Of a DNA stretch of 13,499 bases, positions 1 through 13,499 are shown in pieces. The number at the start of each line of letters is the position of its first letter. Position 1 is the stretch's first letter. The notes beneath the pieces were generated by a model. It was not told where the DNA came from, did not search any database, and was given only the letters and a program-made list of their open reading frames with translations. The position numbers and the translations under genes are program-made. The stretch is from contig JAHENE010000027.1 of the NCBI GenBank assembly GCA_024643305.1, forward strand, positions 1 through 13,499, read 5' to 3'. This DNA is from Thiobacillaceae bacterium. GTDB lineage: Bacteria > Pseudomonadota > Gammaproteobacteria > Burkholderiales > Thiobacillaceae.

Positions 1-702
1 ACCCGCGCAAAGGTCAGCCACCATTTCGCCGCGCCGCGCGCCTACCAGCAGGGCCAGCAACTGACTGCCTTCATCCTGTACTTCAAACACCCCCTTCTTG
101 AATAAAACATGGCGCGACAAATCCAGCGGGGTTTTGATGCGTATGCCCCAGGGGGAAAAAGGTGTGGCCTGGGCTTCGACGCCCTGTTTTGCCAGCAATT
201 CCAGAACGGCTTCGCGACTGTCTTTCAGGGTGTTGACGCGCAAATCCAGCGGAGCGGCGGTTTGCAGGCTGCGCCCCAAAGCGAGGATGCCCGAATCATC
301 ACGCTGGGTGCGCAGCGATTGCACCACCCACTCCGGCAGCTCGGCATGCACTTCAATGGGTGCCGCCTCGAGCGACTTCGATTTCAGCTCGGCCAGTTTG
401 GCCCGATCCTTTTCGCGGGTGAAGGGTTCCAGGTCGCGCAGGCTGATGCCCTGGAAGCGTGCCAGCCACAGCAGCAGCCACAGTCGCGGTGTGCCTTCCG
501 GCAGCAGCCAGCGCAGCGCCAGGAACTTTCTTAATACGCCATAAACACAATCAGCGATGAGGGCGCGATCCTGGCTGCCCAACTTGGGGTTGCGGCGAAA
601 ATAGGCAGACAGCAGCGCGTCGGCGGGTGCGGAGAATCGCAGCACCTCCACCAACAAGGTGCTTGCTTCCTGAAACTGGGCTGGGGTAAGTTTGAGAGAC
701 AC
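1..702 (-). CDS. RsmB/NOP-family RNA m5C methyltransferase, N-terminal part (runs off window)
   Basis: The reverse strand is open from a GTG at 702 to the window edge (234 codons, no stop). The N-terminal half is a helical region of the NusB-like kind seen in RsmB-type enzymes. It reads PADALLSAYFRRNP, then DRALIADCVYGVLRK. The last visible stretch, FEVQDEGSQLLALLVGA then VADLCAG, is the hallmark entry into the SAM-binding site of the NOL1/NOP2/Sun (RsmB) 5-methylcytosine rRNA methyltransferases. The catalytic cysteines would lie beyond the edge and cannot be checked. GTG 702 is chosen because an in-frame stop lies just upstream with no ATG between. The rightward gene starts only 10 bases away, so the promoters must lie inside one another's coding sequence. 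It could be the true 16S C967 enzyme or a paralogue; the family call is firm, the exact rRNA target is not. Confidence 0.88.
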   Translation of the reverse strand, partial: MSLKLTPAQFQEASTLLVEVLRFSAPADALLSAYFRRNPKLGSQDRALIADCVYGVLRKFLALRWLLPEGTPRLWLLLWLARFQGISLRDLEPFTREKDRAKLAELKSKSLEAAPIEVHAELPEWVVQSLRTQRDDSGILALGRSLQTAAPLDLRVNTLKDSREAVLELLAKQGVEAQATPFSPWGIRIKTPLDLSRHVLFKKGVFEVQDEGSQLLALLVGARRGEMVADLCAG

Positions 703-712
703 GAGAAAGATT

Positions 713-1120
713 ATGGAACTGACGCTTTACCGGGAAGCCCCGATTTTACGCGAGAGCCGGCATTTGCCGGCAGAAGTCTACAATCTCGCGCACCTCCTGC
801 TTGCGCACGCCGCCGCACCATGTGTTTTTGTGCCTGTCCGCAGCATGCAGTACCTGGCGGTCATCGACCATGAAGAAATCGTGTTCGTCGATCGTGAGTT
901 GCCCGGCCAAGTGCAATTGGCCTGGCAGAATTTCCAGCGTCAGGAAAGAACTTCACTTAACGAGCGCGTGGGATTTGATGTTGCGTTCTACACGCAGGAA
1001 TCCCTGCAAGTCATGGCGCGGCTCCTGACTGAATTTCCCAAGGCCTTGCAGGCCATCGCGGAAAAGGATCGCATTGGAGAACCGGCCGCTGTGCTGCCGT
1101 TTCCCGGCAAGAAGGACTAG
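713..1120 (+). CDS. Conserved-looking hypothetical protein, 135 aa
   Basis: I do not recognise this family. The ATG at 713 is preferred over an in-frame TTG at 692 because it has a purine-rich GAGAAAG upstream and because the TTG would overlap the divergent methyltransferase start. The predicted protein is soluble and mixed alpha/beta. It begins MELTLYREAPILRES, carries a strand-rich middle (CVFVPVRSMQYLAVID, then EIVFVD) and ends in helices and a Pro-rich tail. No signal peptide, membrane segment or metal-binding motif is visible. Its codon use matches the neighbours, which supports a real gene rather than a shadow. It ends three bases before the psiE stop codon on the other strand, so the two genes converge with essentially no room for a terminator. 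Confidence 0.7.
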   Translation: MELTLYREAPILRESRHLPAEVYNLAHLLLAHAAAPCVFVPVRSMQYLAVIDHEEIVFVDRELPGQVQLAWQNFQRQERTSLNERVGFDVAFYTQESLQVMARLLTEFPKALQAIAEKDRIGEPAAVLPFPGKKD

Positions 1121-1123
1121 GGC

Positions 1124-1531
1124 TTATTCGCTCGAGCTGTCTTCTTTGTAGGGCAGCTTCACGTGACCGTAGCGGATGGCTAGCACTGCCATGGCCAGCA
1201 GCAAAATCGCGCCAGCCACCACAAGCATGCGGATCTCGGTGATGTTCTTCATTTCAAGAATCAGGTATCGCGCCAGCGCGATCATGGCGATGTACAAAGG
1301 GTAGCGGATGGGCAGCTTGCCCTGCCGGTAATACACCGACACCATTGAAAGCACTTCCAGGTAGAGGAACAGCAAGAGCAGGTCTGTCAGGCTAACCGTG
1401 CCGGCGCCAAACATGACCCGTACTTCGCTGGCCGCAGCGACTACCGTGGCAATGGCGATGATGCCAAGGCCGATATGCTCAAGAAGCTCCAGGGCAAACT
1501 TGTTGAAGTTTTTGATAAAGTTCGTGGGCAT
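1124..1531 (-). CDS. psiE: PsiE family membrane protein
   Basis: A 135-residue, strongly hydrophobic protein with about four membrane helices. It resembles the phosphate-starvation-inducible PsiE family (PF06146). Helix 1 is around residues 17-35 (LEHIGLGIIAIATVVAAAS). A second is around 45-63 (the LTDLLLLFLYLEVLSMVSVYY region), followed by the family's charged turn RQGKLPIRYPLYIAMIALAR. The last is near VVAGAILLLAMAVLAIRYG. PsiE function is unresolved; it is an inner-membrane protein in the Pho regulon of E. coli. The ATG at 1531 is favoured over an upstream in-frame ATG at 1597 because AAGGAG and GAAGG lie just upstream, and because 1597 would overlap the ydcH-like gene. It sits 16 bases downstream of that gene, so the two probably form one leftward transcript. 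No Pho box was identified. Confidence 0.82.
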   Translation of the reverse strand: MPTNFIKNFNKFALELLEHIGLGIIAIATVVAAASEVRVMFGAGTVSLTDLLLLFLYLEVLSMVSVYYRQGKLPIRYPLYIAMIALARYLILEMKNITEIRMLVVAGAILLLAMAVLAIRYGHVKLPYKEDSSSE

Positions 1532-1547
1532 GCTTTGGGCCTTCTCC

Positions 1548-1763
1548 TTAAGCAGGAATGTCAGGCACCAGCTGCATGCCCAACTGCTCGATCTCATCTT
1601 TCAGCTGGAGTTTGCGTTTTTTCATGCGCTGCAGGGCAAGGCGATCATCAAATCCCGTGGCCTCAAGGTGGTTAAGCGCGGTATCGAGATCGCGATGCTC
1701 GGTTTCCAGTGCGGCAATGCGGACCTTGATGCGGACGGTTTCGGTATCACTCAGTGCGGGCAT
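1548..1763 (-). CDS. YdcH family (DUF465) small coiled-coil protein
   Basis: A 71-residue protein from the ATG at 1763. It shows the DUF465/YdcH pattern (PF04325): a helix with the TEHRDLDTAL signature at residues 21-30, a short turn containing FDD, and then the basic-acidic helix RMKKRKLQLKDEIEQL at 46-61. That is nearly the whole usual family length. Members are small, soluble, helical-hairpin proteins of unknown role. Here it heads a leftward pair with psiE and is divergent from purE. Longer in-frame extensions to 2096 on this strand run antisense through purE and are not real. The short coiled-coil design and the conserved KKRKL-LKDEI block make the family call strong even though function is unknown. 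Confidence 0.82.
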   Translation of the reverse strand: MPALSDTETVRIKVRIAALETEHRDLDTALNHLEATGFDDRLALQRMKKRKLQLKDEIEQLGMQLVPDIPA

Positions 1764-1821
1764 AAGCAGGCTCGGGGCATGTTTGAGTAGAATATACACT
1801 TTATAACAAGCAGGATCAGCC
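1764..1821. promoter_or_regulatory. Divergent ydcH-like / purE intergenic promoter region
   Basis: This 58-base gap between divergent starts is clearly richer in A+T than its flanks, with a core around 1791-1807. The reverse strand offers TATATT (1796-1791) with CTGATC 17 bases upstream (1819-1814) as a plausible sigma70 promoter for the ydcH-like/psiE pair. The forward strand has TATAAC at 1802-1807 and TATACA at 1793-1798 but no convincing -35 box. AGGA at 1812-1815, six bases before the purE ATG, is a good ribosome site. A PurR operator was not recognised. Confidence 0.4.
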
Positions 1822-2313
1822 ATGTCCCAGCCCCTTGTTGGTGTCGTCATGGGTTCTTCCAGCGACTGGGAAGTGATGCAGCATGCCGTTGCCCAGTTGC
1901 AGGCCTTCGGCATTGCCCATGAAGCGCGTGTCGTTTCCGCCCACCGCACCCCCGATCTGTTATACGAATACGCCGCCAGCGCCGAATCGCGGGGGCTCAA
2001 GGCCATCATCGCAGGGGCCGGCGGCGCGGCCCACCTGCCGGGCATGCTTGCCGCCAAGACCATCGTGCCGGTGCTGGGCGTGCCGGTGCCATCCAAGTAT
2101 CTAAAAGGCCAGGACTCACTTTATTCCATCGTGCAGATGCCCAAGGGCATCCCCGTTGCCACCTTTGCCATCGGCGAAGCCGGCGCGGCCAACGCCGGGC
2201 TGTTTGCCGTATCCATGATCGCGCGGGACAACCCTGAGGTGGCAAAGAAACTGGAGAAATTCCGCGCGGAACTGACCGAATCCGTGCTGGCCATGCAGTT
2301 GCCAGAAAGCTAA
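1822..2313 (+). CDS. purE: N5-carboxyaminoimidazole ribonucleotide mutase, PurE class I
   Basis: A 163-residue cytoplasmic enzyme that moves the carboxylate of N5-CAIR to C4, giving CAIR in de novo purine synthesis. It has the class I signatures: GSSSDW at residues 11-16 binding the ribotide phosphate, AHRTP at 40-44, and the glycine-rich [11 protein letters not shown] at 64-74 with the conserved His71. Length is standard for bacterial class I PurE, which works as an octamer. The start has AGGA six bases upstream. purK follows after nine bases; the pairing with purK identifies this as the two-step PurK/PurE route rather than the single-step class II PurE. It appears to be the first gene of a tight rightward run that continues into the lasso cluster. 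Confidence 0.97.
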
Positions 2314-2322
2314 CCCAAACCG

Positions 2323-3453
2323 ATGAGCAAGCTCCCTTTATTGCCGGGTGCCACGCTTGGCATCCTCGGCGGCGGCCAGCTTGGCCGCATGTTCACCATC
2401 GCCGCCCGCACCATGGGCTACAAGGTCATGGTGCTGGACCCCGACCCGCAAAGCCCGGCAGGGCAGATGGCCGACGTGCATTTGCAGGCCGACTACACTG
2501 ACCACGGCGCGCTTAAAAAATTGGGCGAAGCCTGCGCAGCTGTCACCACCGAATTCGAAAACGTCCCTGCCGAAAGCCTGATCGAACTTGCGAAAAACTG
2601 CCGCGTCTCGCCTGGCGCGGATGCAGTCGCCATCGTGCAGGACAGAAGCCGGGAGAAATCCTGGCTTGCCGACAACGGCTTTGCCACCGCGCCCTTTGCG
2701 TTGATCAATAACGAAGCTGATCTGGAAGCAGGTGCGAAAGCGACAGGATTTCCCGCGATATTGAAGGTCAGCCGCTTCGGCTACGACGGCAAGGGCCAGT
2801 TCCGGGTTGCTTCCGCCGAAGAGCTCAAGGCCGCGTTTGCTGAACTGAAAGGCATTGCCTGCGTGCTGGAAGGTTTCGTCAATCTGGAACGCGAAGTCTC
2901 CGTGGTGCTGGCGCGCGACGATGCCGGCCAATGCGCGCTTTTCCCTGTCGCGGAAAACCGCCACGAAAACGGCATCCTCGATGTTTCCATCGTGCCGGCC
3001 CGGGTGGCGGATGCGCTTGCCCAGACCGCCATCGACATGGCGCGAAACGTTGCCGGCAAGCTTGGCTATGTGGGCGTGATGGCCGTCGAGTTTTTTGTTG
3101 CCGACGGCAAGCTGCTGGTCAATGAAATCGCGCCGCGCCCGCACAACTCCGGCCACTACACCCTGGATGCCTGCGCCACGGACCAGTTCGAACAGCAGGT
3201 AAGGGCGCTCTGCGGCCTGCCCTTAGGAGATACGCGCCTGCTGTCGCCGGTCGTCATGGTCAACATTCTCGGCGACCGCTGGGTAAACGGCGGCCCGCAC
3301 TGGGACAAGCTGCTTGCCCACCCCAACATCAAACTGCACCTCTACGGCAAAGAAACCGCGCGCCCCGGGCGCAAGATGGGACACTTCAATGTGCTCGATG
3401 CAAACCTCGACGAGGCCTTGAGCCTGGCCGAAAACATGCGGCAAAAATTATGA
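2323..3453 (+). CDS. purK: N5-carboxyaminoimidazole ribonucleotide synthase, PurK
   Basis: A 376-residue ATP-grasp ligase that converts aminoimidazole ribonucleotide, bicarbonate and ATP to N5-CAIR, the substrate of PurE. The N-terminal biotin-carboxylase-like fold opens with GILGGGQLGRM (residues 13-23), followed by VLDPDPQSPAGQMAD. The ATP-grasp core includes ILKVSRFGYDGKGQ, LEREVSVVLARD, ENRHENGILD and the catalytic NEIAPRPHNSGHYT segment typical of PurK. The C-terminal part (LPLGDTRLLSPVVMVNILGD, then HLYGKETARPGRKMGHFNVL) is also standard. Length fits the family. It starts nine bases after purE, with only a weak Shine-Dalgarno, and its stop overlaps the manC start by ATGA, which points to translational coupling of purine and sugar-nucleotide genes. 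Confidence 0.97.
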   Translation: MSKLPLLPGATLGILGGGQLGRMFTIAARTMGYKVMVLDPDPQSPAGQMADVHLQADYTDHGALKKLGEACAAVTTEFENVPAESLIELAKNCRVSPGADAVAIVQDRSREKSWLADNGFATAPFALINNEADLEAGAKATGFPAILKVSRFGYDGKGQFRVASAEELKAAFAELKGIACVLEGFVNLEREVSVVLARDDAGQCALFPVAENRHENGILDVSIVPARVADALAQTAIDMARNVAGKLGYVGVMAVEFFVADGKLLVNEIAPRPHNSGHYTLDACATDQFEQQVRALCGLPLGDTRLLSPVVMVNILGDRWVNGGPHWDKLLAHPNIKLHLYGKETARPGRKMGHFNVLDANLDEALSLAENMRQKL

Positions 3454-4868
3454 TTCATCCCGTTATCCTCTCCGGCGGTTCCGGCACACGGCTTTGGCCC
3501 CTGTCGCGCGCAGCGCTGCCCAAGCAACTGCTGCCGCTGGTGTCCGAGCGCTCCATGCTGCAGGAAACCGTACTGCGCCTAAGCGGACTGCCGGATGTCG
3601 GCACACCCATGGTGGTGTGCGGCAACGACCACCGCTTTCTGGTCGCCGAGCAGATGCAGGAAATCGGTGTGGAGCACCCTGCGCTGCTGCTGGAACCCAT
3701 GGGACGCAACACTGCGCCCGCCGTCGCAATTGCAGCTTTTGCACTCATGGAGCAGGATGCCGATGCCGTCATGCTGGTGCTGCCGGCTGATCACCTTATT
3801 GCCGATACACCGGCGTTCCATCGCGCCATTGCTCGTGCGGCGAAGGCAGCCGAGGCGGGTTTGCTGGTCACTTTCGGCATCCAGCCCGATGCGCCCGAAA
3901 CCGGCTACGGTTACATCCGCCGCGGTGAGTTGTTGGCAAACCTTGACGACACATATCGCGTGGGTGCCTTTGTGGAAAAACCCGACCACGCCACGGCAAA
4001 GACCTATGTGAAGAGCGGTGACTTTTTCTGGAACAGCGGCATGTTCGTGTTCAAGGCGGCGCGCTACCTGCAGGAACTGGAAAAACTCCGCCCCGATATC
4101 CTGGAAGCTGCGCGTGCCGCCTGGTCAAGCCGCAAGAGCGATCTCGATTTCTGCCGCCTGGATGCAGATGCCTTCGGCGCCTGTCCCTCGGACTCCATTG
4201 ATTACGCCGTCATGGAAAAAACCGATGCCGCCGCCGTGGTGCCGGTCGACATGGGATGGAACGACGTCGGTTCATGGTCCTCGCTGTGGCAAACAGCCGC
4301 CACACGTGACGACAACGGCAACAGCGTGCGCGGCGATGTGTTGCTGGAAGAAGTCAGCAATTCCTACGTGCGCGCGGAAACGCGCATGGTGGCAGCGATA
4401 GGGGTAAAGGATATCGTCATTGTGGAAACGCCCGACGCCGTACTGGTTGCGCACAAGGACCAGGCGCAGCAGGTCAAGAAAATTGTCGAACGCCTGCACA
4501 CCAGCGAGCGCGACGAACACATCAGCCACACTCGGGTTTACCGACCCTGGGGCTGGTACGAACAGCGCGACGAAGGCGCGCGCTTCCAGGTCAAGCGCAT
4601 CATGTTGAAGCCCGGCGCCAAGATCTCCCTTCAGTCCCATAAGCACCGCAGCGAACACTGGGTGGTGGTAAACGGCACGGCGACCGTCACGCGCGGCGAA
4701 GACATCATTACCCTGCACGAAAACCAGTCCACCTACATCCCGGCCGGCATGGTGCACCGCCTGGAAAACAAAACTGATGATCCGCTGCACATCGTCGAAA
4801 TCCAGTCCGGCAGTTACCTGGGCGAAGACGACATCGTGCGGCTGGAAGACATTTACAAGCGTGATTGA
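3450..4868 (+). CDS. manC: Bifunctional mannose-1-phosphate guanylyltransferase / mannose-6-phosphate isomerase (type II PMI)
   Basis: A 472-residue cytoplasmic enzyme of the AlgA/ManC/XanB type that makes GDP-mannose and, in the two-domain form, also interconverts fructose-6-P and mannose-6-P. The nucleotidyltransferase domain opens with LSGGSGTRLWPLSR, the GMP-transfer signature, followed by PKQLLPL, and has LPADHLI and VEKPD in the expected order. The C-terminal cupin carries the zinc-binding isomerase motif at residues 395-407 (Q395, H397, H399, E402, H403, then W-V-V-V). It ends with GEDDIVRLEDIY as in other family members. Both activities therefore look intact. The ATG overlaps the purK stop. 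GDP-mannose would feed the exopolysaccharide genes implied at the right edge; use by the adjacent lasso cluster is possible but unproven. Confidence 0.95.
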   Translation: MIHPVILSGGSGTRLWPLSRAALPKQLLPLVSERSMLQETVLRLSGLPDVGTPMVVCGNDHRFLVAEQMQEIGVEHPALLLEPMGRNTAPAVAIAAFALMEQDADAVMLVLPADHLIADTPAFHRAIARAAKAAEAGLLVTFGIQPDAPETGYGYIRRGELLANLDDTYRVGAFVEKPDHATAKTYVKSGDFFWNSGMFVFKAARYLQELEKLRPDILEAARAAWSSRKSDLDFCRLDADAFGACPSDSIDYAVMEKTDAAAVVPVDMGWNDVGSWSSLWQTAATRDDNGNSVRGDVLLEEVSNSYVRAETRMVAAIGVKDIVIVETPDAVLVAHKDQAQQVKKIVERLHTSERDEHISHTRVYRPWGWYEQRDEGARFQVKRIMLKPGAKISLQSHKHRSEHWVVVNGTATVTRGEDIITLHENQSTYIPAGMVHRLENKTDDPLHIVEIQSGSYLGEDDIVRLEDIYKRD

Positions 4869-4912
4869 TCAACGCGCATACCGTTAACCGTAGGTTTGAT
4901 AGGTTGCGGCGC

Positions 4913-6001
4913 ATGGCTTCTTCCCCCACCAGACTACCCGATTACCGCAGCGCCTTGCTGCCGATTCTGGCTGGGCCAGCCGATTGCCGCCGGTTGCTGG
5001 CAGAGGCGGACACCACCTTCCTGAATTTCATTCTGTCGCAGGATCTTGGACCGCTCTGGCATTACACGCTGCAGAACGCAGGCTTGCTGGAAGGCTTGCC
5101 GCCAGAAACCGTTGAACCCCTGTCCGGATCGCGCAGAGTTGCTGTGGCGTCATATCTGGCGCAGCGGGCAGCGTTGGAAAAACTGGGCAAGATGTTTGAT
5201 GGCCAGGACATCGCCTATGCGGTAATGAAGGGAGTCCATGTGCGCGAATGCGCTTATCCCGAGGCTTCACTCAGAACGTCCTGTGATATCGATATTCTGG
5301 TGTTGCCGGGAAAAAAGCAAATGGCGGCACGGTTGCTTGTTGACGCGGGCTACAAGCTACATGCCGATCCCGCCAACATCAGCCACGAAGCGACATTCAG
5401 CAACCCACCGGTTGATATTGATCTGCATTGGGACATCATGCGGCCGGGGCGCACCCGCATAGACATGGCAGCCGGCCTTCTCGATCGGCGCCAACGCATC
5501 AATGGCATTTGGGGGTTGTCGGACAACGACACGCTTTTCCTGATGCTGACGCATCCGGCATTCACCAAGTACGTGTGCTCTCCAAATATGGGGCTGGCGC
5601 GCGTGGCGGATTTCCTGCTCTGGATAAAGCGCAGACAAATCGAATGGCCGGCAGTTTTGCGATTGCTCGATCAGGCTGGATTGAAAACAGCCGCCTGGAC
5701 CATGCTTGCCTGGTATTCGATGCTTGCCCCGGAACAATCCCTTGCATTGCTGTCCGAGTGGCGTAGCAGTGTGCGCCCCGGAAAATTGCGCTCGGCCTAT
5801 CTTCAATATTGGTTGACGCATGATTTGCCAAGCAGGTTGATAAACCAACCCTTACCTATACAAATTGGCTTCACGTTGGCCATGCATGACAAAATGGCTG
5901 ATGCATTGCACGCGTTGAGCGGCTTGCGCATTGCACGCAAAACCGCAATGCGTGACGTTGCCTTGCTTGTGGGCGGACAGGACAAGTTGGCGAACGGATA
6001 A
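4913..6001 (+). CDS. NTP_transf_5-type nucleotidyltransferase, lasso-cluster associated
   Basis: A 362-residue protein of the 'uncharacterised nucleotidyltransferase' family (PF14907). Numbering from the ATG at 4913, the family core is VMKGVHV (104-110), RTSCDIDILV (121-130) with the metal-binding Asp125-x-Asp127 pair, and VDIDLHWDI (167-175) supplying another Asp/His set. Family members sit in lasso clusters that also have an HPr-kinase-like gene, such as those of paeninodin and pseudomycoidin. Their substrate is not settled, so transfer of a nucleotidyl or sugar group to the peptide is only inference. The start is uncertain: an in-frame TTG at 4865 would overlap the manC stop, but ATG 4913 has an AGG nine bases upstream. 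The stop codon directly abuts the ABC exporter ATG. It opens the lasso part of the run. Confidence 0.82.
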   Translation: MASSPTRLPDYRSALLPILAGPADCRRLLAEADTTFLNFILSQDLGPLWHYTLQNAGLLEGLPPETVEPLSGSRRVAVASYLAQRAALEKLGKMFDGQDIAYAVMKGVHVRECAYPEASLRTSCDIDILVLPGKKQMAARLLVDAGYKLHADPANISHEATFSNPPVDIDLHWDIMRPGRTRIDMAAGLLDRRQRINGIWGLSDNDTLFLMLTHPAFTKYVCSPNMGLARVADFLLWIKRRQIEWPAVLRLLDQAGLKTAAWTMLAWYSMLAPEQSLALLSEWRSSVRPGKLRSAYLQYWLTHDLPSRLINQPLPIQIGFTLAMHDKMADALHALSGLRIARKTAMRDVALLVGGQDKLANG

Positions 6002-7660
6002 ATGAAAGACTCTGATTACAGATTCCTGCTCCAGCATGCCTACGCCTACAGGGGGATGCTTGCACTGAGCGCCTTGATGATGGTGGCCGAAAGCGGCGTG
6101 GCGCTGGCTGTGCCCTGGTTGGGCGGCCGGGTCGCAGAAGGGCTGCTGTCGAGCGCGCTCCGCAACACGGGTATCGTGCTGCTGGCCTTGCTGATACTTT
6201 TTGCTGTGCAGGCATTGCTCAAGTTTGGCAACACCTACCTATTGAGCCGAAGTGCTGAACATATCCTCGCTGACCTGCGTATCCGGCTCTACGACCACCT
6301 CCAGGCATTGCCACTAAGCTTTTACCATCAGCGTCGTCAGGGCGAGATACTGTCCCTGCTCACCTACGATGTCGAGAGGCTGAGCGGTTATGTAACCGGC
6401 ACCTTGCTTAGCGTGGTTCCCCTGCTCATTACCGTGGCAGGCGCACTGGTGTTCATGTTCCGTATCGACCCTACGCTTTCGCTGATTGCCGCGATACTCA
6501 TCCCGCTGTTCTATCTCATGCTTAAAATCGTCGGCCGCCGACTGCGCCCCCTTGCCAGCCAGTTGCAGGAAGCGCATGCCGGTGCGGTAGCCATCGCCGA
6601 AGAAAACCTCGGCATGCTGCCTGCCATCAAGACCTTTACCCGCGAGCCCCAGGAATCCGAGCGCTACCGCAGGCAGATCAATCAAATCCTGAGCCTGAGT
6701 GCCAGACAGCGCGCAATTTATTCAGGGCTTGGCCCGGCCGTGCAGTTGCTGGCAGCAGCCGGCATCGTGCTGGTGCTTTGGCTGGGAGGTGAACGCATCA
6801 CAGGCGGCACGATGAGCCCCGGCGAACTGGTCACTTTTTTGCTCTACACAACGCTGCTCACCCGTCCGGTCAGCGCACTGGCCGATGTTTACGGCCAGAC
6901 CCAGGGCGCACGTGGCGCCCTGCAGCGTCTTCAGGATGTAATGACAGAGCGGCCTGAACCCTTTACACGGACGGCGCATGAGTTGCCGCAAGTGCGCGGC
7001 GAAATAGCATTTCGCAATCTTGGCTTTGCTTACCCTGGCCGCAAGCCCGTGCTGGAAAACTTCAACCTGCACATCAAGGCAGGCGAAACCATCGCCATAA
7101 CCGGCGAGAATGGTGCAGGTAAAAGCACGCTCGCCCATCTGCTCATGCGCCTGCACGAGCCCGAGTCAGGCCAGATACTCATCGACGGAACGGACGTCGC
7201 GGCGGTAAGCCTTACCAGCCTGCGCAGCCAGATTGGCGTGGTTCCCCAACACGTACTGCTGTTCAACGGCACAGTGCGCGACAACATCGCTTATGGACGC
7301 CTCGATGCGGTTACAGAATCCATCGAACACGCCGCCAAGCTTGCACGTGCGCACGACTTCATCCTCAAACTCCCCAATGGTTACGACACCCTCATCGGTG
7401 ATCAGGGTGTTCGTCTTTCCGGCGGCCAACGCCAACGTATTGCGCTGGCTCGCGCGCTTCTCAAGAACCCGCCCATCCTCATCCTGGACGAAGCCACCGC
7501 CATGTTCGACCCAGAGGGGGAGCGTGAATTTCTGGAAGAAAGCCGGCAAGTCCTCAAGAACCGCACCGTCCTGCTGATTACTCATCGCCCGGCCAGTCTG
7601 GCGCTGGCAGACCGAGTAATTGAAATCGGCGAACATGGGCTACGCGAGCGAGTGTCCTAG
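6002..7660 (+). CDS. Lasso-type ABC exporter (fused membrane and ATPase domains)
   Basis: A 552-residue half-transporter of the MsbA/McjD kind, expected to act as an inner-membrane homodimer that exports the mature peptide and confers self-immunity. Residues ~1-300 contain six membrane helices with the coupling-helix segment LPLSFYHQRRQGEILSLLT. The ATPase domain has Walker A GENGAGKST (368-376), Q-loop VVPQ, signature LSGGQ (472-476), Walker B ILILDEA with Asp496 and Glu497, and the switch His528 in ITHRP. All catalytic residues are present. There is no N-terminal C39 peptidase domain, consistent with a separate leader peptidase (B2). The ATG follows the preceding stop without a gap. Sequence alone would also fit a lipid or toxin exporter; the lasso role is inferred from the neighbouring B1, B2 and cyclase. 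Confidence 0.93.
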   Translation: MKDSDYRFLLQHAYAYRGMLALSALMMVAESGVALAVPWLGGRVAEGLLSSALRNTGIVLLALLILFAVQALLKFGNTYLLSRSAEHILADLRIRLYDHLQALPLSFYHQRRQGEILSLLTYDVERLSGYVTGTLLSVVPLLITVAGALVFMFRIDPTLSLIAAILIPLFYLMLKIVGRRLRPLASQLQEAHAGAVAIAEENLGMLPAIKTFTREPQESERYRRQINQILSLSARQRAIYSGLGPAVQLLAAAGIVLVLWLGGERITGGTMSPGELVTFLLYTTLLTRPVSALADVYGQTQGARGALQRLQDVMTERPEPFTRTAHELPQVRGEIAFRNLGFAYPGRKPVLENFNLHIKAGETIAITGENGAGKSTLAHLLMRLHEPESGQILIDGTDVAAVSLTSLRSQIGVVPQHVLLFNGTVRDNIAYGRLDAVTESIEHAAKLARAHDFILKLPNGYDTLIGDQGVRLSGGQRQRIALARALLKNPPILILDEATAMFDPEGEREFLEESRQVLKNRTVLLITHRPASLALADRVIEIGEHGLRERVS

Positions 7661-7714
7661 CGGGTGGCAATGCCGGGTAAAATGCCCCAAGCACAGTAAG
7701 CAAGGTTCTCAGTC

Positions 7715-7984
7715 ATGTTGTCAAAACGCGTAATCCTTTCCCCCGAAGCCATGTTCCAGGAAATTGGCGGCGAGGGCGTCATTCTCGATTTGAAAAGCTC
7801 CAGCTATTTTGGTTTGGACGAAGTCGGCGTGCGCCTTTGGCAGCTACTGCAAATCGATCCAAGCCTGCAAGCCGCCTGCGCTGCGCTGCTGGAAGAATTC
7901 GAAGTCGAGCAGGGACAACTCGAGCAGGATTTGACCAAGCTTGTCGACCAGCTAATCGAAGCAGGCCTTGCCAGCATTGAATAA
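7715..7984 (+). CDS. Lasso peptide B1 protein (PqqD-like leader-binding, RRE)
   Basis: An 89-residue stand-alone PqqD-fold protein (RiPP recognition element). In lasso pathways B1 grips the leader of the precursor through its YxxPxL motif and delivers it to the B2 peptidase. The sequence follows the PqqD plan: strands in VILSPEAMFQEIGGEGVILDLKSSSYFGLDEVG (read in two blocks), then winged-helix helices containing VRLWQLL, and a C-terminal helix ending LVDQLIEAGLA. Length is standard for B1. AAGG lies nine bases before the ATG. A TAAAAT box at 7678-7683 in the 54-base gap upstream could be a -10, but no good -35 accompanies it. The gene overlaps the start of B2. A PqqD chaperone of an 'HPr-rel' system is the alternative; B2 and cyclase next door argue for lasso. 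Confidence 0.9.
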   Translation: MLSKRVILSPEAMFQEIGGEGVILDLKSSSYFGLDEVGVRLWQLLQIDPSLQAACAALLEEFEVEQGQLEQDLTKLVDQLIEAGLASIE

Positions 7985-8441
7985 TTTGCGACGCAAGCTC
8001 CAGCAGTGGCGTGCGCTCCAATCCTGGGAACGCCGTCTGTTGATCAAATTGTCTTTTCTGCTGCCCATGACCTGGCTTGCGCTGAGCATATTCGGATTTA
8101 ATCGCGCACGGCGCATGGCCGAATTTGAACTGCCGGACAACACAAGCGTACCCAACGAACCCGCCATGGAACGAGCACAGCGAATAGCGCAACTCGCCGC
8201 CATTGCATCCAGCCATGGCATCTACAAGGCAAACTGCCTGAAACAATCCCTGGTCCTTTGCTGGCTGTTAAGACGGCAGGGAATGCCCGCGCAAATAAAA
8301 ATCGGCGTAATCCCTAACGTACAACCCTTTCAGGCGCATGCCTGGGTTGAGCTGGTCAACATTCCATTGGGCCAGCAAGTCAACGAATACAGACCATTTG
8401 ATCATCTGCCGCTTGACCACGAAAAGCCATCAATGTCATGA
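7977..8441 (+). CDS. Lasso peptide B2 leader peptidase (transglutaminase-like cysteine protease)
   Basis: About 154 residues. B2 proteins cut the leader at the junction with the core, usually two residues after a conserved Thr. The catalytic Cys is C87 in ANCLKQSLVLCWLL and the His is H121 in AHAWVEL; both sit in the canonical lasso B2 context (CLxxSL...WLLRRxG, then AHAWVE). The usual third residue, an Asp in a 'vND' segment, reads N136-E137 here. The N terminus (residues ~1-45) is a basic amphipathic helix plus a hydrophobic stretch, as in other B2 proteins. All possible starts are TTG (7968, 7977, 7986). 7977 is chosen because GCAGG sits 11 bases upstream, giving an 8-base overlap with B1. 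The stop overlaps the methyltransferase ATG (ATGA), implying coupled translation. Confidence 0.88.
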   Translation: MNNLRRKLQQWRALQSWERRLLIKLSFLLPMTWLALSIFGFNRARRMAEFELPDNTSVPNEPAMERAQRIAQLAAIASSHGIYKANCLKQSLVLCWLLRRQGMPAQIKIGVIPNVQPFQAHAWVELVNIPLGQQVNEYRPFDHLPLDHEKPSMS

Positions 8442-9562
8442 GTTATTCTCAAATTGGTTCGCATCGTTCCATGGTGTTCGACGAGTTTCGCAATGACCTC
8501 TATGTACAGGCCATTCGCAATCTTGTCACACCGGATTTCGTGGTACTGGATCTGGGGGCCGGGCTAGGGGTACACGGTTTGATTGCGGCGGCTGCGGGGG
8601 CAAAGCGGGTTTATCTGGTCGAACCAGAACCGATTGTCAAAATTGCCATGGAAATAGCGCGTGCAAATGGCTTGGCAGACCGGATTGTGGTGCTGGAAGG
8701 CAAGATTGAAGAAGTCGAACTGCCCGAGCAAGTTGATCTCATCATTTCGGTGTTTACCGGCAACCTTCTTTTTAGCGAAGATCTCCTGCCCTCGCTTTTC
8801 CATGCCCGCGACCGTTACTTGAAGCCCGGTGGCAAACTCATCCCCGACCTTGCCGAACTGCTGCTCGCCCCGGTGTCCGCGCCGGAACTGCATGCCAAAT
8901 ACGTCGGCCGCTGGTCCGAGCCGAATATGGGATTAGACTTTTCGGCTGGCCGCCGTTTTGCAGCCAATGAGATTCTTTGGCTGAACCGGGGGGAATTAAA
9001 GGTCGAGCGGCTTGGCCCCGGGGCTGCTCTTTCCGCCATCGACTTGACGACCGCGACCAAGGCCGATTGCCAGGGTGAAGCGGTCTGCCACATCAACACA
9101 TCCGGCTTGTGCCATGGGCTCTTGGGCTGGATCAGGATGCGCCTGGGCGACGAATGGCTGAGCACCGACCCGGCCGGCCCCGAAGTGCATTGGCAGCCGG
9201 TCTTGCTGCCAATCGAACCGCCCCTGCAGCTGGAGCGGGACGAGGAGGTTGTCATCAAGTTGCAACGCCCGGCAAAGGGTGACTGGACTTGGGGTTTGGC
9301 GGCGGTTGCCGGCACGCGCAGGCATTCCAGTTTCCTGGCGCGTGCAGATGGGCCGCGGCGATTGCAAAAGATGGCGCCCGACAACTGCCCGGGGATTAGT
9401 GCAAACGGTGAAAATGTCCTGCGTATTCTGGAAATGATGCGAGAGGGGGCAAGCAACAGGGATATCGCACAGACACTTGCCGACAGCCGCCAAGAGGGTT
9501 TCCGGGATATTGAAGAAGCGATGCAAGCAGTTCAACGATTGGCCCTTCGTTATGCAAAATGA
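8438..9562 (+). CDS. PRMT-like SAM-dependent methyltransferase in the lasso cluster
   Basis: A 374-residue class I methyltransferase whose first ~150 residues follow protein arginine methyltransferases closely. It has GSHRSMVFDEFRN (7-19), SAM motif I VLDLGAGLG (36-44), the ribose-binding acid E62 in YLVEP, EGKIEEVEL (87-95), and the substrate loop S104-V-F-T-G-N-L-L-F-S-E114. In PRMTs that loop is SEWMGYxLxxE with two catalytic glutamates. Here the first is Val105 and only Glu114 remains, so guanidine methylation is doubtful. A beta-barrel-like middle follows. The last ~60 residues (312-374) form a separate helical, winged-helix-like tail (MMREGASNRDIAQTLAD). The substrate is presumably the precursor or mature lasso peptide, inferred from context only. 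It overlaps B2 by ATGA and precedes the cyclase by 45 bases. Confidence 0.85.
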   Translation: MSYSQIGSHRSMVFDEFRNDLYVQAIRNLVTPDFVVLDLGAGLGVHGLIAAAAGAKRVYLVEPEPIVKIAMEIARANGLADRIVVLEGKIEEVELPEQVDLIISVFTGNLLFSEDLLPSLFHARDRYLKPGGKLIPDLAELLLAPVSAPELHAKYVGRWSEPNMGLDFSAGRRFAANEILWLNRGELKVERLGPGAALSAIDLTTATKADCQGEAVCHINTSGLCHGLLGWIRMRLGDEWLSTDPAGPEVHWQPVLLPIEPPLQLERDEEVVIKLQRPAKGDWTWGLAAVAGTRRHSSFLARADGPRRLQKMAPDNCPGISANGENVLRILEMMREGASNRDIAQTLADSRQEGFRDIEEAMQAVQRLALRYAK

Positions 9563-9607
9563 TGGGTAATCGTAAAAGATGAAAACCGCACCCAGACATC
9601 GCACGCC

Positions 9608-11479
9608 ATGAGCGGCATCGCCGGAATTATCCGATTTGACGGCGCTCCAATCGAGCGCGGCTTGGTGGAAAAAATGACTACGGCCATGTCGCACCGCGGG
9701 CCGGACGGCATCAACCATTGGATTAAGGGCTCGGTCGCTCTCGGCCAGTGCATGCTGCGCACCACGCCAGAATCCCTCGAAGAAACCCAGCCGCTTACCA
9801 GTGAGGACCAAAGCCTGGTGCTGGTCATGGATGGCCGGGTTGATAACTGGGAGGAGTTGCGAAAAGAATTGCTAGGTCGGGGAGTTGTCCTGCGTAGCCG
9901 TGCCGATGCAGAGCTCATGCTCAGATCTTATGAGCTCTGGGGCGAGGATTGTCTGTCGCATATTGATGGCGATTTTGCCCTTGTGATCTGGAATGCGCGT
10001 CGGCAAGAAGTCTTTTGTGCTCGTGACCGGGTAGGCAATAAACCCTTTAATTACTACTGGGATGGAAAGTCACTCTACTTCGCGACTGAGCTACATGCGA
10101 TTTTGGCCCTGCCGGGCATAAAGCAGGTATTCAACGAGGGCTTGCTGGCGGAATATCTGGCCAACGAGTGGTACAGCCGCGATGAGACTTTCTGGAAGGG
10201 GGTCATGCGTTTGATGGGAGCGCACCATATGACTGTCTCTGCAAGCGGAATCAAGATACAAAAATACTGGCAGCCTGATCTTTGGGCAACTTTGCCATAC
10301 AAAAGGGACGAAGAATACGTAGAGCACTATCGAACATTGTTTGCCGACGTCGTGCGGCGCACGTCACGTTCACATTTGCCAATTGCCTTTGAAGTAAGCG
10401 GCGGACTGGATTCGTCTGCATTGTTTGCCATGGCCGAGCATCTTCGGCGTCGGCGGCAATTGCCGGCACCGGCGATTAGTGGCTATACCTTGGATTACCA
10501 TGATGACGTCAATGCAAACGAGTTGGAATATAGCCGAGCAGTAGGACAGCATCTTGGCGTTCATGTGAAGGAAATACCACCAACCCAGATGCAGCTGTCC
10601 TGGTATCAAAACTGGGCAAAAAAGTATCGTGAAATGCCAAGCTCACCCAATGCCGTACAGGCAATAGGACTCAGGCATGCTGCTCAACGGGATGGGGCGA
10701 GGGTAATCGTGGCGGGCGTGGGTGGAGACGAGTGGGTAGGGATGCCATGGACGGGGGCCTATTACGCTGAAGAATTGGCCCTGCGTCAGTGGCGAAATGT
10801 TTTAACTTGCCTTAAACATGATGTCAACGATCTAGGGTTTTCTCAGGCGCTGTGGTGGTTGTTTCGGCACGGGGCGGTGCCAGTGGCGCCTGAGACTCTC
10901 AAGAGACTGTTGCGTAAGTTCCGTAGGGTAAAAAAAATAAAATCTTGGCTTTCGTCGGATTTGCAAAGAGTGCATGACGAGCGGCGGAATCGCTTAAGAA
11001 TCCACGTACCCAAGCATCTCGCACGACGCGGCCAGCGCATCCAGACGCTGATTTATGAAGATGCTTATGAAGCTTCTGGCCGAGAATTCGAAGACAGGCT
11101 GTCCAGTAGTTTGCAACTGGAATTGCGCAGACCCTTCTTCAATCACGCAATCATTCAGTTTGCCTTTTCCACCCCGGAGCGACTTCGGTCAAGGGGGCAT
11201 GTAACCAAGTGGCTGCATCGACAGGCCATGAACGGGTTATTGCCTGACCTAGTTCTTAACCGCCCCACCAAGGCTGATTTCATGATTGCCTTCCGCCGTT
11301 ACCTGGATGGTCTGAGGAAAGAACTGGCCGATGAGGTTGTGCCACGCCGGGCTGCATGGCTTAATGCGGATCAGGCCAGGGTAATTATTGAGCATTATCA
11401 AGATGATGGTTATGCAGGCCGGGCAGAATGGTGGCTGTGGGCGTTGTTAGGCTGTGATGCTTTGCCTAACGACAATTAG
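9608..11479 (+). CDS. Lasso cyclase C (asparagine-synthetase-like)
   Basis: A 623-residue AsnB homologue. In lasso biosynthesis this enzyme uses ATP to adenylate the side chain of an Asp or Glu at core position 7-9, then joins it to the freed N terminus. The N-terminal glutaminase-like domain keeps HRGPDG and DGDFALVIWN. The nucleophilic Cys2 of true asparagine synthetases is replaced (Met-Ser-Gly-Ile-Ala-Gly-Ile), so no ammonia channelling is expected, as is usual for lasso cyclases. The synthetase domain has the PP-loop S264-G-G-L-D-S269 and GVGGDEWVGM near residue 370. The reading frame is intact. From about 10000 onward the gene is visibly lower in GC than the purine genes. It is followed by the precursor, an order different from the classic A-C-B arrangement. 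Confidence 0.92.
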   Translation: MSGIAGIIRFDGAPIERGLVEKMTTAMSHRGPDGINHWIKGSVALGQCMLRTTPESLEETQPLTSEDQSLVLVMDGRVDNWEELRKELLGRGVVLRSRADAELMLRSYELWGEDCLSHIDGDFALVIWNARRQEVFCARDRVGNKPFNYYWDGKSLYFATELHAILALPGIKQVFNEGLLAEYLANEWYSRDETFWKGVMRLMGAHHMTVSASGIKIQKYWQPDLWATLPYKRDEEYVEHYRTLFADVVRRTSRSHLPIAFEVSGGLDSSALFAMAEHLRRRRQLPAPAISGYTLDYHDDVNANELEYSRAVGQHLGVHVKEIPPTQMQLSWYQNWAKKYREMPSSPNAVQAIGLRHAAQRDGARVIVAGVGGDEWVGMPWTGAYYAEELALRQWRNVLTCLKHDVNDLGFSQALWWLFRHGAVPVAPETLKRLLRKFRRVKKIKSWLSSDLQRVHDERRNRLRIHVPKHLARRGQRIQTLIYEDAYEASGREFEDRLSSSLQLELRRPFFNHAIIQFAFSTPERLRSRGHVTKWLHRQAMNGLLPDLVLNRPTKADFMIAFRRYLDGLRKELADEVVPRRAAWLNADQARVIIEHYQDDGYAGRAEWWLWALLGCDALPNDN

Positions 11480-11491
11480 TATCGGTATACT
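11462..11491 (+). promoter_or_regulatory. Candidate sigma70 promoter for the precursor gene
   Basis: TTGCCT at 11462-11467 and TATACT at 11486-11491 are separated by 18 bases, a good sigma70 match that lies over the last codons of the cyclase. A second candidate is TTAGTA (11476-11481) and TATATT (11499-11504), 17 bases apart. Either would start a transcript some 30-45 bases before the precursor ATG. The stretch is AT-rich compared with the cluster. Function is inferred from sequence only. Confidence 0.45.
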
Positions 11492-11540
11492 TCATGGATA
11501 TATTCTTTGTGTAAAGACAGAAACTGAAAGGATGTTGCAA

Positions 11541-11933
11541 ATGCAAAATAAAACACCGTCCAGCCTCCCATCAATAAATAGTGATATTGGGGGCAAAAAA
11601 AAATATCAGAAGCCGGAATTAAAGACTTACGGCACCGTTAAGAACTTGACCCAAGCTACCGGAAGCGTCAATGGAGACGCAGGTCAAGGCATGATGCCTT
11701 CGGATCGGGCGCTCAAAGAGAACATTAACCGAATTGGTTCTCACCCTTTTGGGTTTGGTCTCTACTTGTTCGATTACAAGCCAGAATACCGCGACATTTT
11801 TGGCCATGGCCGCCAGTTCGGTGTGATGGCGCAGGAAGTTGAAACTGTCATGCCGGAGGCCGTTGGCATTCGGCCAGAGGGTTACAAAGTGGTCTACTAC
11901 GCAATGCTCGGAATTACTCAAACAATCCATTAA
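11541..11933 (+). CDS. Lasso precursor fused to a Peptidase S74 autoprotease/chaperone domain
   Basis: A 130-residue protein with three parts. Residues 1-38 are a lasso leader: Tyr22-x-x-Pro25-x-Leu27-x3-Gly31-x5-Thr37. Residues 39-54 are a short Gly/Ala-rich segment that I propose as the core. Residues 54-130 are a Peptidase S74 domain, opening S54-D-R-A-L-K59-E-N-I and continuing with FGFGLYLFDYKPEYRD, RQFGVMAQEVETVMPEAV and EGYKVVYYAMLGI. S74 domains are self-cleaving chaperones of phage tail spikes and of the eukaryotic Myrf protein. The domain stops soon after the last conserved block, so the usual C-terminal helices are missing. ATG 11541 is chosen for GAAAGGA at 11526-11532; in-frame ATGs at 11454 and 11532 are less likely. 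A lone S74 protein could be called a tail-fibre protein, but no phage genes are nearby and the leader is cluster-matched. Confidence 0.85.
   Translation: MQNKTPSSLPSINSDIGGKKKYQKPELKTYGTVKNLTQATGSVNGDAGQGMMPSDRALKENINRIGSHPFGFGLYLFDYKPEYRDIFGHGRQFGVMAQEVETVMPEAVGIRPEGYKVVYYAMLGITQTIH
11604..11651 (+). other. Lasso leader recognition motif in the precursor
   Basis: Codons for Tyr22 to Thr37. If the core starts at Ala39, Tyr is at -17, Pro at -14, Leu at -12 and Thr at -2. These are the positions known from lasso leaders that bind B1 proteins and are cut by B2 two residues after Thr. The agreement at all four positions is what fixes the proposed core start. Confidence 0.82.
11655..11702 (+). 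other. Proposed lasso core, Ala39-Ser54 (16 residues)
   Basis: The segment reads ATGSVNGDAGQGMMPS. Ala1 follows Thr(-2)-Gln(-1), and Asp8 (codon 11676-11678) is the only acidic residue, giving an eight-residue Ala1-Asp8 ring and an eight-residue tail. Ala at position 1 is known in some lasso peptides, paeninodin among them. Met13 and Met14 are the only large tail residues that could act as plugs. The C-terminal limit depends on S74 self-cleavage and is inference. Confidence 0.5.
11700..11717 (+). other. Predicted S74 self-cleavage motif (Ser54-Asp55, Lys59)
   Basis: Codons for SDRALK. In endosialidase tail spikes and in Myrf the S74 domain cuts itself at this motif using a Ser and a Lys five residues later. 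Ser54 and Lys59 have the same spacing. Cleavage between Ser54 and Asp55 would separate the leader plus core from the remaining 76 residues. Motif presence is seen; activity is inferred. Confidence 0.6.
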
Positions 11934-11949
11934 CCAAGAAGCGGACTAG

Positions 11950-12891
11950 TTGCTTCAAAGTGAGCTGCTCACGCTTGCAAGAGGTGGGCAGTTTGCATTT
12001 TCTGCCCTTGTGTTCCTTGTGACAGGCACCCCAACCCTACCCATTTTCAAAGTGTGCACCTCAAGGGAGCAGGTATCCATAGGCGCAGATCCGTTTCATA
12101 AATGGATTTTTCCAGATGGGACGCTCTGGGCTAGTTTCTACTATTTAAATGATGGCTACCTGCTGCGCTTCCCCGATCTGGCTGACTTTAGTGTTTCCCT
12201 GGATGGCACAAAGGTGGTGGCCTATCCGGTTGCAGGGGTATCCAAACAGACCGTTGACCATCTCTACCTGAACCAGGTGCTGCCGCAGGCCTTGAGTCGA
12301 CAGTACATGCTGGTGCTGCATGCAGCCGCAATCGAAATAAACAATTTTGCCGTGGCTTTTCTGGGTGTTTCTGGCCAAGGCAAATCCACGCTGGCTGCCA
12401 GTTTTGCTACCAGAGGCTTCCGCTTCCTTACAGACGATGGCCTGCAGCTTGAAAAGAGTGGAAACGTATATCTTGCAAAGCCGAGCCACCCATCGATTCG
12501 GCTTTGGGATGACTCGCGCAGCGCGGTCATGCCGGAAGGCGCCCAGGCAGCACCGCCTGTTGACTACACTCCCAAATCACGCCTGTTGGCGGGTGATGAA
12601 GTTCCGCATTGCGATGAGCCACGCCCTCTTCGCGCCTTGTATTTTTTAGGAGAGGGCAACACGGATATGGTCTCCATCGAGCCAATCAGCGGGCGCGATG
12701 CGATGATAGAACTGGTCAAACATTGCTTCCTGCTCGACATCGAAGAGCGGGAAATGCTGAAACATCACTTTGGCCAACTTACAGAGTTGGCCAAACGTCC
12801 GATATTCTTCCGCCTGGATTATCCAAGGCGATACGAAATGCTGCCAGAGGTAAGGGAAGCCGTGATCCGGCATGCGACGGCATTGCAGTAG
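11950..12891 (+). CDS. HPr-kinase-like lasso peptide kinase
   Basis: A 313-residue protein related to the C-terminal domain of HPr kinase/phosphorylase. Numbering from TTG 11950: VLHAAAI (122-128), the P-loop G139-V-S-G-Q-G-K145-S146-T147, and L-T-D162-D163 after the next helix, as in HprK-like proteins of RiPP clusters. The region before residue 110 (VDHLYLNQVLPQALS) is the linker common to this subfamily. In the paeninodin system a homologue phosphorylates the hydroxyl of the precursor's C-terminal Ser. Here the precursor lies 16 bases upstream, so it is the obvious partner. An in-frame TAG directly precedes the TTG, no ATG lies near, and the ribosome site is weak, so translation may depend on the precursor gene. 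An 'HprK-related kinase A' from non-lasso systems is the alternative. No clear terminator follows. Confidence 0.85.
   Translation: MLQSELLTLARGGQFAFSALVFLVTGTPTLPIFKVCTSREQVSIGADPFHKWIFPDGTLWASFYYLNDGYLLRFPDLADFSVSLDGTKVVAYPVAGVSKQTVDHLYLNQVLPQALSRQYMLVLHAAAIEINNFAVAFLGVSGQGKSTLAASFATRGFRFLTDDGLQLEKSGNVYLAKPSHPSIRLWDDSRSAVMPEGAQAAPPVDYTPKSRLLAGDEVPHCDEPRPLRALYFLGEGNTDMVSIEPISGRDAMIELVKHCFLLDIEEREMLKHHFGQLTELAKRPIFFRLDYPRRYEMLPEVREAVIRHATALQ
12769..12795. repeat. Perfect 11-bp inverted repeat inside the kinase gene
   Basis: TTTGGCCAACT (12769-12779) and AGTTGGCCAAA (12785-12795) are perfect reverse complements around the five-base loop TACAG. The hairpin lies about 100 bases before the kinase stop and has no following T-run, so it is not a typical intrinsic terminator. 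Both arms encode normal protein, so chance is possible. Confidence 0.55.
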
Positions 12892-12939
12892 TAGTGACCC
12901 GCCCCCGCGATTTCAGGCGTCAACCCTAAATATCCCGTA

Positions 12940-12968
12940 TTGCCCATCCTTAAACTTGATCGTACAAT
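12940..12968 (+). promoter_or_regulatory. Sigma70-type promoter before the EPS-associated regulator
   Basis: TTGCCC at 12940-12945 and TACAAT at 12963-12968 are separated by exactly 17 bases. Transcription would start near 12975, only a few bases before the ATG at 12982. It lies in the 90-base gap after the kinase and probably marks the end of the lasso run and the beginning of an EPS transcript. The gap holds no obvious terminator hairpin. Confidence 0.6.
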
Positions 12969-12981
12969 TTCACCCCATAAA

Positions 12982-13380
12982 ATGAACGATCAATCCAACT
13001 CCCCGCCCGAAGCCTGGCGCCTGCAAATGCTTAAAGTATTGCAGGCCAACCCCGGCCTGAGCCAGCGCCAGTTGGCCGCGCAAATGGGCGTAAGCCTGGG
13101 CAAGGCCAACTACTGCCTGCGCGCGCTGGTGGAAAAAGGCCTGATCAAGCTGGGCAACTTTGGCAAAAACCCCAACAAGCGCCAGTACGTCTACATCCTG
13201 ACCCCGGCAGGTCTGGAAGAAAAAACCCGCATCACCCTGGCTTTCCTCAAGCGCAAGGAAACCGAATTCGAATCCATCCGGCGCGAGATCGAGACGCTGA
13301 GAGGCGATCTTGAATCTGCCGCAATGGCAAGGCAGGACGAATCATCCATAACCAACCCAAGTCGGTACTCCAATAAATGA
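12982..13380 (+). CDS. MarR-type EPS-associated transcriptional regulator
   Basis: A 132-residue DNA-binding protein. The N-terminal winged helix-turn-helix spans about residues 10-80: [19 protein letters not shown] (read as helix 1 to 2), then [19 protein letters not shown] as the recognition helix, then a basic wing around [19 protein letters not shown]. The rest is a charged coiled coil ([18 protein letters not shown]) likely used for dimerisation. This layout matches the 'MarR family EPS-associated' regulators found at exopolysaccharide loci of betaproteobacteria. ATG 12982 is chosen over an in-frame TTG at 12940, which would overlap the promoter. No Shine-Dalgarno is visible and the predicted 5' leader is very short. 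Its stop overlaps the next gene by ATGA, tying it to the sugar-nucleotide gene it may control. Confidence 0.88.
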
Positions 13381-13499
13381 GACTCTACGACTCCCGCAAG
13401 CGCATCATGGTCACCGGCGGCGCCGGCTTTCTGGGTTCGCACCTGTGCGACAAGCTGCTGGAGCAGGGCCACGACGTGCTGTGCGTGGACAACCTCTTC
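13377..13499 (+). CDS. NAD-dependent SDR, UDP-glucuronate decarboxylase-like, 5' end only
   Basis: Forty-one codons are visible from the ATG overlapping the previous stop to the window edge. They contain the Rossmann signature [20 protein letters not shown] followed by [10 protein letters not shown], which is the typical opening of UDP-glucuronate decarboxylases (UXS, making UDP-xylose) and of close UDP-sugar epimerases. The catalytic Ser/Tyr-x3-Lys residues are outside the window, so the exact reaction cannot be confirmed. Pairing with the EPS-type regulator supports a role in polysaccharide precursor supply. Confidence 0.85.

Follow-up and report, generated by a model that had tools for sequence, protein, structure and literature searches.

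Lasso peptides are made from precursors whose leader is bound by the protein B1 and cut by the peptidase B2, and whose core is closed by the cyclase C, which joins core residue 1 to a ring acid. Here we analyze a lasso gene cluster on a 13,499-nucleotide contig of a Thiobacillaceae bacterium (GenBank assembly GCA_024643305.1, contig JAHENE010000027.1, positions 1 to 13,499; this whole stretch is hereafter the window), in which the precursor gene at 11541–11933 encodes a lasso leader, a putative core and a Peptidase_S74 domain in one protein. Lasso precursors and S74 domains are both known, and their combination in a single precursor appears to be new. We consider it probable that the precursor has three working parts, with the S74 domain as a follower that cleaves itself off at P53|S54 and thereby defines the C-terminal end of the lasso tail.

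Self-cleavage by domains of this kind has been characterized in MyRF, which is cut between P586 and S587; the S587A or K592A mutation abolishes cleavage, and these residues correspond to S911 and K916 of the endosialidase endoNF (PMC8326128). Y615 and Y617 of MyRF each contribute partly, and jointly they are fully required at that site; for cleavage to occur, MyRF must also form a trimer, which a C-terminal coiled coil holds together (PMC8326128). In MYRF, cleavage drops markedly with D579A and G626A, the counterparts of N912 and G956, which are essential in the K1F endosialidase (PMC3742443). On the lasso side, a review reports that the biosynthetic enzymes tolerate C-terminal protein fusions, with astexin-1, and sometimes pandonodin, fused to GFP or a leucine zipper (PMC8498205), and another paper describes the lasso kinases PadeK, ThcoK and SyanK, which phosphorylate a conserved C-terminal Ser (PMC9266682). 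Among the papers listed by full-text searches of open-licence PMC, none was seen to link lasso peptides with S74, and the terms 'fused', 'follower', 'autoproteo', 'C-terminal extension' and 'tail fiber' are all absent from a 2026 review of interlocked peptides.

A lasso precursor with an S74 domain

The 130-residue precursor is encoded on the + strand (11541–11933), its ATG at 11541 preceded by AAAGG at 11527–11531, and the open reading frame (ORF) lies between a lasso cyclase and a kinase-like gene, as an earlier reading made from the letters of this DNA (the sequence-only reading) had claimed. The leader (residues 1–38, 11541–11654) carries Y22, P25, L27, G31 and T37, the last at position −2. 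The putative core, ATGSVNGDAGQGMMP (residues 39–53, 11655–11699), has Asp at position 8, giving a predicted 8-residue ring A1–D8 (11655–11678) and a 7-residue tail. The Peptidase_S74 domain follows directly (residues 54–130, 11700–11930) and starts SDRALK, with putative catalytic residues S54 (11700–11702) and K59 (11715–11717) and a predicted self-cleavage site at P53|S54. Its PF13884 match (E 8e-10) covers residues 54–108 and model positions 1–57 of 58, scoring 39.3 bits against a gathering cut-off of 22.

The leader had been assigned to the NF033521 type, which was not among the matches; NCBIfam NF033528 'lasso_cyano' matched residues 19–42 instead, at 25.1 bits and so below its cut-off of 33. 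The proposed SDxxLK motif fits the window copy but is too narrow for the family, whose motif is SDxxxK since the residue before Lys varies. A PDB search with a profile of 32 relatives (E<=10) returned four matches: the MyRF ICA domain 7dc3 (E 4e-4), the phage long tail fibre 6f45 (E 6e-4) and, weakly, the TbiA lasso leader peptides 5v1v (E 0.5) and 5v1u (E 1.6). These cover both S74-type and leader-type structures, so each half of the precursor is recognized apart.

The window thus combines the leader residues and an Asp at core position 8 with nearby genes for a RiPP recognition element (RRE; RiPP, ribosomally synthesized and post-translationally modified peptide), a leader peptidase and a cyclase, and a threaded macrolactam is the predicted mature product. 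With precursors of the TbiA/TbiB1 type (split B1 and B2, NF033528 leader) it shares Y-x2-P-x-L-x3-G, T at −2, a core Asp/Glu at position 8 or 9, and B1, B2, C and ABC genes in the cluster; it differs in the 77 extra residues of the S74 domain directly after the core. Leader residues, ring acid, PF13884 domain and lasso neighbours together support the earlier proposal of a distinct precursor architecture. We class the protein as a lasso precursor carrying a short S74 domain and not as a MyRF-type ICA protein, because the C-terminal coiled coil is absent.

Conservation of the precursor family

The sequence-only reading would have been undone by a fusion found in this genome alone, but the fusion is not unique. 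One homology search returned 948 proteins at E<=0.01 of 952 candidates, and a second 2594 at E<=1e-10 of 4461. The best 120 from each search gave 210 different proteins, which we aligned, with no motif required, together with 30 ORFs from 28 genome loci of alpha-, beta- and gammaproteobacteria and a Cyanobium (240 rows). A 114-row alignment was built from the first 120 proteins, excluding six longer ones of 140–167 residues (P0021, P0048, P0051, P0060, P0078 and P0111) that are included in the 240 rows. Among 369 sampled genomes belonging to that bacterial class, a clear full-length member was found only in the window's own genome, with partial or weak matches in five others.

The leader is strongly conserved, Y22, P25, G31 and T37 being present in 114/114 rows and L27 in 99/114. 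Thr stands at −2 in 238 of the 240 rows, including all 210 listed proteins, and the remaining two rows lack that part. These two (L023 and L029, without the leader part) were left out of the core count, which leaves 238 parsable cores. All 238 have Asp or Glu at core position 8 (223) or 9 (17), some at both, against 32 on average and 50 at most when letters were shuffled within each core in 2000 trials, a control that ignores kinship. This is the lasso ring signature, at more than chance frequency.

The cores are otherwise diverse: 226 of the 238 predicted cores are different, and the core is the most varied part of the precursor after the N-terminus. Their last residue is most often Pro, narrowly (44/238), followed by Met (40), with Ser in 10/238, and a median of 17 residues separates position −1 from the S74 Ser. 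Mean pairwise identity is 74% in S74, 47% in the leader and 30% in the core, and a conserved S74 domain beside a variable core fits a constant helper with a diversifying product.

S54 is kept in 237/240 rows and K59 in 240/240, counts to be read with a bias toward conserved copies, since the relatives were chosen largely for their resemblance to the S74 region and the genome-search patterns lie in S74. An earlier parse that demanded S[DE]xxxK (144/150 rows parsed) is not used, its S and K counts holding by construction. The exceptions at S54 are a Cys in L019, a loss at the contig end in L029 and a stop codon in L023. D55 is less constant than S54 and K59 and may also be E, H, A or C, and His68 is near-invariant (239/240). 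L019 (9929–10363) is the sole full-length member of the 240 rows with Cys replacing the S74 Ser (CDMRLK), a possible Cys-Lys variant. The residues behind the S74 domain (window 11907–11930) vary among relatives and often end in His or Gln.

Comparison with MyRF, endosialidases and phage proteins

The S74 domain of the window resembles the ICA domains of MyRF and endosialidase NF in its Ser-Lys dyad, five residues apart, and in a cut site, predicted here, directly before the Ser; P53|S54 parallels the Pro|Ser site of MyRF. The upstream part differs, being a leader and a 15-residue core and not a large trimeric protein. By PDB-profile alignment, the cleavage residues of MyRF/MYRF map to S54, K59, D55, G94, F77 (Tyr in MyRF) and Y79. 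Among the 114 rows D55 is kept in 113, G94 in 114, F77 as Phe in 114 and Y79 in 110. By analogy with MyRF and the endosialidases, we infer that S74 would act as a C-terminal follower cutting itself off at P53|S54 by a Ser-Lys mechanism.

Not all MyRF positions have a conserved counterpart: R590 maps to the variable A57, I637 to Met (106/114) and Q639 to Asp (86) or Gln (28). The main point against activity is that the coiled coil that trimerizes MyRF is absent. The precursor stops five residues beyond LGI, at the place where this helix would begin, and the last helix of the predicted structure comprises residues 120–123; the protein therefore falls outside the MyRF/endosialidase-type subtype. 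The predicted structure weakly supports an ICA-like fold.

Phage virion S74 domains are of the same size as the lasso ones and have the same S and K, which were present in 60/60 distinct domains (from the best 80 of 97 IMG/VR loci), a count likewise favouring conserved copies because one of the three viral-search patterns contains the Lys. They also end short, with at most 22 residues behind the domain in 60/60 and at most 12 in 58/60. In contrast to the lasso S74 proteins, none has a lasso-type leader (0/60), and His at domain position 15 (counted without gaps) occurs in 2/60 phage domains versus 239/240 of the lasso family, which hints at a lasso-specific role for His68. A reading as phage cargo was rejected: the relatives in IMG/VR are proteins of phage type, and the lasso leader is missing from all 60 domains compared. 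Many phage proteins at the viral loci (L083–L162) terminate in a short S74 domain with few residues behind it, often preceded by a stretch rich in Gly/Ala. In four of five phage records the protein stops no more than a few residues past the domain, and the fifth (L082), a long tail fibre, continues into a helix-like tail; plasmid records gave two weak S74 matches.

Short precursors and the core boundary

Precursors without S74 help to place the end of the core. In the two Erythrobacter genomes that contain L027 and L028, the lasso cluster has the order C-A-MT-K-B1 and its precursor is short, with a stop after GSSALTSDSGGSMVGGMLM or GSVSTLSNDSGGSMVGGVDMMM (…VDMMM and …GMLM); the sister clusters L017, L018 and L026, with the same gene order, have an S74-tailed precursor in that slot. 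Thiobacillus L005 holds both forms in one cluster: one precursor lacks S74 (core AGSGKNKENVNNCIKGTANIKRQRTC), and the other carries it (AGTGKQSEFSFLNGLIKNCATNRISIKACA|SDRNVK). Short precursors thus stop where S74 would start, so that S74 begins about where an ordinary core ends. They were picked by eye from a pattern list of mostly chance ORFs, and those of L040 and L041 were then placed in clusters. In L023 an in-frame stop codon (8231–8233) lies at the position of the S74 Ser with the S74 frame open behind it; the stop may be real or a sequencing error.

In the cyclase tree, the cyclases of the short-precursor loci L040 and L041 cluster with those of L017, L018 and L026, the group having six members and support of 100/100. 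The S74-linked cyclases form two groups overall, the larger of which contains L040/L041 as nested members; the deepest joins are weak and several rows long, and the tree does not settle the number of gains and losses. A search with a short Erythrobacter precursor returned four proteins of eight candidates, three of which NCBI names 'lasso RiPP family leader peptide-containing protein' or similar. A cyclase search in the same-class sample at E<=1e-60 gave two distant relatives; one of them, L038, is flanked by a short ORF that has a leader-like stretch yet lacks Asp/Glu at positions 7–9, and this ORF was not used.

Genomic setting

The precursor family sits mostly beside lasso genes, where the sequence-only reading needed it to be. 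We scanned the relatives' loci with seven window proteins besides the precursor, at no less than 40 bits, measuring distances between ORF bounds on the same strand, so that divergent or opposite-strand copies are missed in the counts that follow. In 23 of the 28 loci the precursor has a cyclase no more than 250 bp away, and within 5 kb we found the kinase in 23, B1 in 19, the methyltransferase in 18, the ABC exporter in 14, B2 in 13 and the NTP_transf_5 gene in two. In L003, L025 and L029 the precursor is at a contig end, accompanied by methyltransferase and kinase, by ABC and B2, and by the kinase, respectively. Only L027 (9986–10366) and L028 (9953–10375), both from Erythrobacter, are orphans, for which the scan detected no lasso gene up to 10 kb away; each of the two genomes has its cyclase cluster elsewhere, with its own short precursor. 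These orphan S74-tailed precursors could act in trans via the distant cyclase. Dechloromonas L009 (5889–10363) has three S74-tailed precursors, and two of its cores end in Cys or Cys-Ser and hold a second Cys, suggesting disulfide-closed tails.

The window cluster spans 4865–12891, all on the + strand, with short gaps or none between genes. The presumed operon begins with an NTP_transf_5 nucleotidyltransferase (4865–6001, PF14907 E 8e-36), followed by an ABC exporter with membrane and ATPase domains (6002–7660; PF00664, PF00005). B1, a PqqD-type leader-recognition (RRE) protein (7715–7984), matches PF05402 (E 4e-17) and, below its cut-off of 80, NF033536 lasso_PqqD_Bac (49.7 bits), and B2, a transglutaminase-like lasso leader peptidase (7968–8441), matches NF033537 lasso_biosyn_B2 (74.7 bits, cut-off 33). 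A PRMT-like S-adenosylmethionine-dependent methyltransferase (8438–9562; PF13649, PF22528) precedes the asparagine-synthetase-like macrolactam cyclase C (9608–11479; PF00733, PF13537; NF033535 at 379 bits, below the cut-off of 525). Behind the precursor lies the HprK-like kinase (11950–12891), with PF07475 (E 1e-5) and TIGR04352 (E 9e-12) both below their curated cut-offs. Scans for repeats, promoters and terminators around the precursor gene gave nothing usable.

In the kinase, at least 92% of 25 rows retain H124, the P-loop K145 and D163. The window core ends in Pro and the precursor in His. The paeninodin and pseudomycoidin clusters, as described in PMC9266682, share the HprK-like kinase and nucleotidyltransferase genes with the window and differ in that the window has no C-terminal Ser, the PadeK/ThcoK-type target, on core or precursor. 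The HprK-like kinase is probably active on another site, judging from its conserved residues.

Upstream of the cluster lies a gene (3450–4868) that we take to resemble a sugar-1-phosphate guanylyltransferase, and downstream a MarR_EPS regulator (12940–13380; TIGR04176, 141.9 bits against a cut-off of 88). The lasso cluster looks to sit near exopolysaccharide-type genes.

Mechanism and alternatives

In the three-part model, B1 would read the leader and B2 would cut after residue 38. The leader and ring acid are read from the sequence and the chemistry is that of the lasso family: C would close the A1 amino group onto the D8 side chain. The S74 follower would fold behind the core and cut the P53–S54 bond with S54 as nucleophile and K59 as its partner, as in MyRF and the endosialidases, setting the C-terminus of the lasso tail at residue 53. 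For the untagged protein, the predicted parts of 53 and 77 residues have calculated monoisotopic masses of 5594.82 and 8820.43, and the predicted lasso, unmodified ATGSVNGDAGQGMMP less one water, has M 1373.570 ([M+H]+ 1374.578), values that methylation or phosphorylation would change. Were cleavage early, as in MyRF, the pathway would see an ordinary leader-core precursor; were it late, the ring would close round a tail bearing a folded domain, and the closed lasso would be released from a bulky plug. The artificial astexin-1-GFP fusions (Zong 2016), as described in PMC8498205, likewise place a folded protein on a lasso C-terminus; those were engineered and kept, whereas the window fusion is natural and probably removed. 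Among the roles suggested for the domain by the sequence-only reading, a removable C-terminal tag fits best, with S74 as its own putative remover, and we found no evidence for a delivery module.

The S74 domain might instead stay on, so that the product would be a lasso ring attached to an S74 protein, perhaps an oligomer, that is displayed or secreted with the lasso as its cap. Such a product would suit the acceptance of C-terminal protein fusions by lasso enzymes (PMC8498205) and the standing of S74 as the most conserved part of the precursor, but we hold it unlikely, given that the Ser-Lys dyad is more constant than the adjacent D55 and that S74-less precursors end at the core in two Erythrobacter clusters and in L005. 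We give a little less credence to a domain serving only as a handle for folding, solubility or recruitment, its Ser and Lys kept for the fold while another protease trims the core. B2 and S74 are the only protease-type families among the nine window proteins scanned, and the sole full-length replacement of the Ser in 240 rows is Cys, also a nucleophile; yet the coiled coil needed in MyRF is absent here, S and K are present in 60/60 phage relatives too, and an extra protease gene in the relatives' loci would escape a scan made with seven window proteins.

Conservation of Ser54 could also reflect a kinase substrate, the core ending in Ser54 and being phosphorylated in the fashion of PadeK, ThcoK and SyanK. 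The kinase lies within 5 kb in 23 of the 28 loci, and a C-terminal Ser is where known lasso kinases act (PMC9266682), but we find this very improbable: short precursors in kinase-bearing clusters end …MMM, …MLM or …RTC (L005) and not in Ser, the two from Erythrobacter ending in Met, and K59 is left unexplained. The fragmented state of the window genome (311 contigs, 83% complete, one gene copy) could raise the suspicion of a chance fusion, a frameshift or a mis-annotation, to which we assign a negligible probability, since 210 relatives listed from other sources share the architecture, gene order is conserved, and this recurrence refutes it.

Implications

Taken more broadly, the odds in our judgment lean somewhat toward a large and so far unnamed branch of lasso biosynthesis that uses a phage-type S74 domain as a self-removing follower, in which S74 may hold or plug the tail until closure. 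The family looks large (2594 proteins at E<=1e-10, with the best 120 examined), yet it is easily missed: NCBI names several of the listed S74-tailed members 'tail fiber domain-containing protein', and at about 120–165 residues they may fall outside searches for short precursors. Its members supply 226 different predicted cores for which both ends are now proposed. They also offer a case, open to testing, in which a RiPP precursor would release its own product, and perhaps an example from nature of a lasso that closes while a folded protein sits on its tail. The family also adds another setting for S74 besides phage fibres and MyRF. The recurrence of this design in many bacteria suggests a lasso route in which the precursor may trim its own tail.
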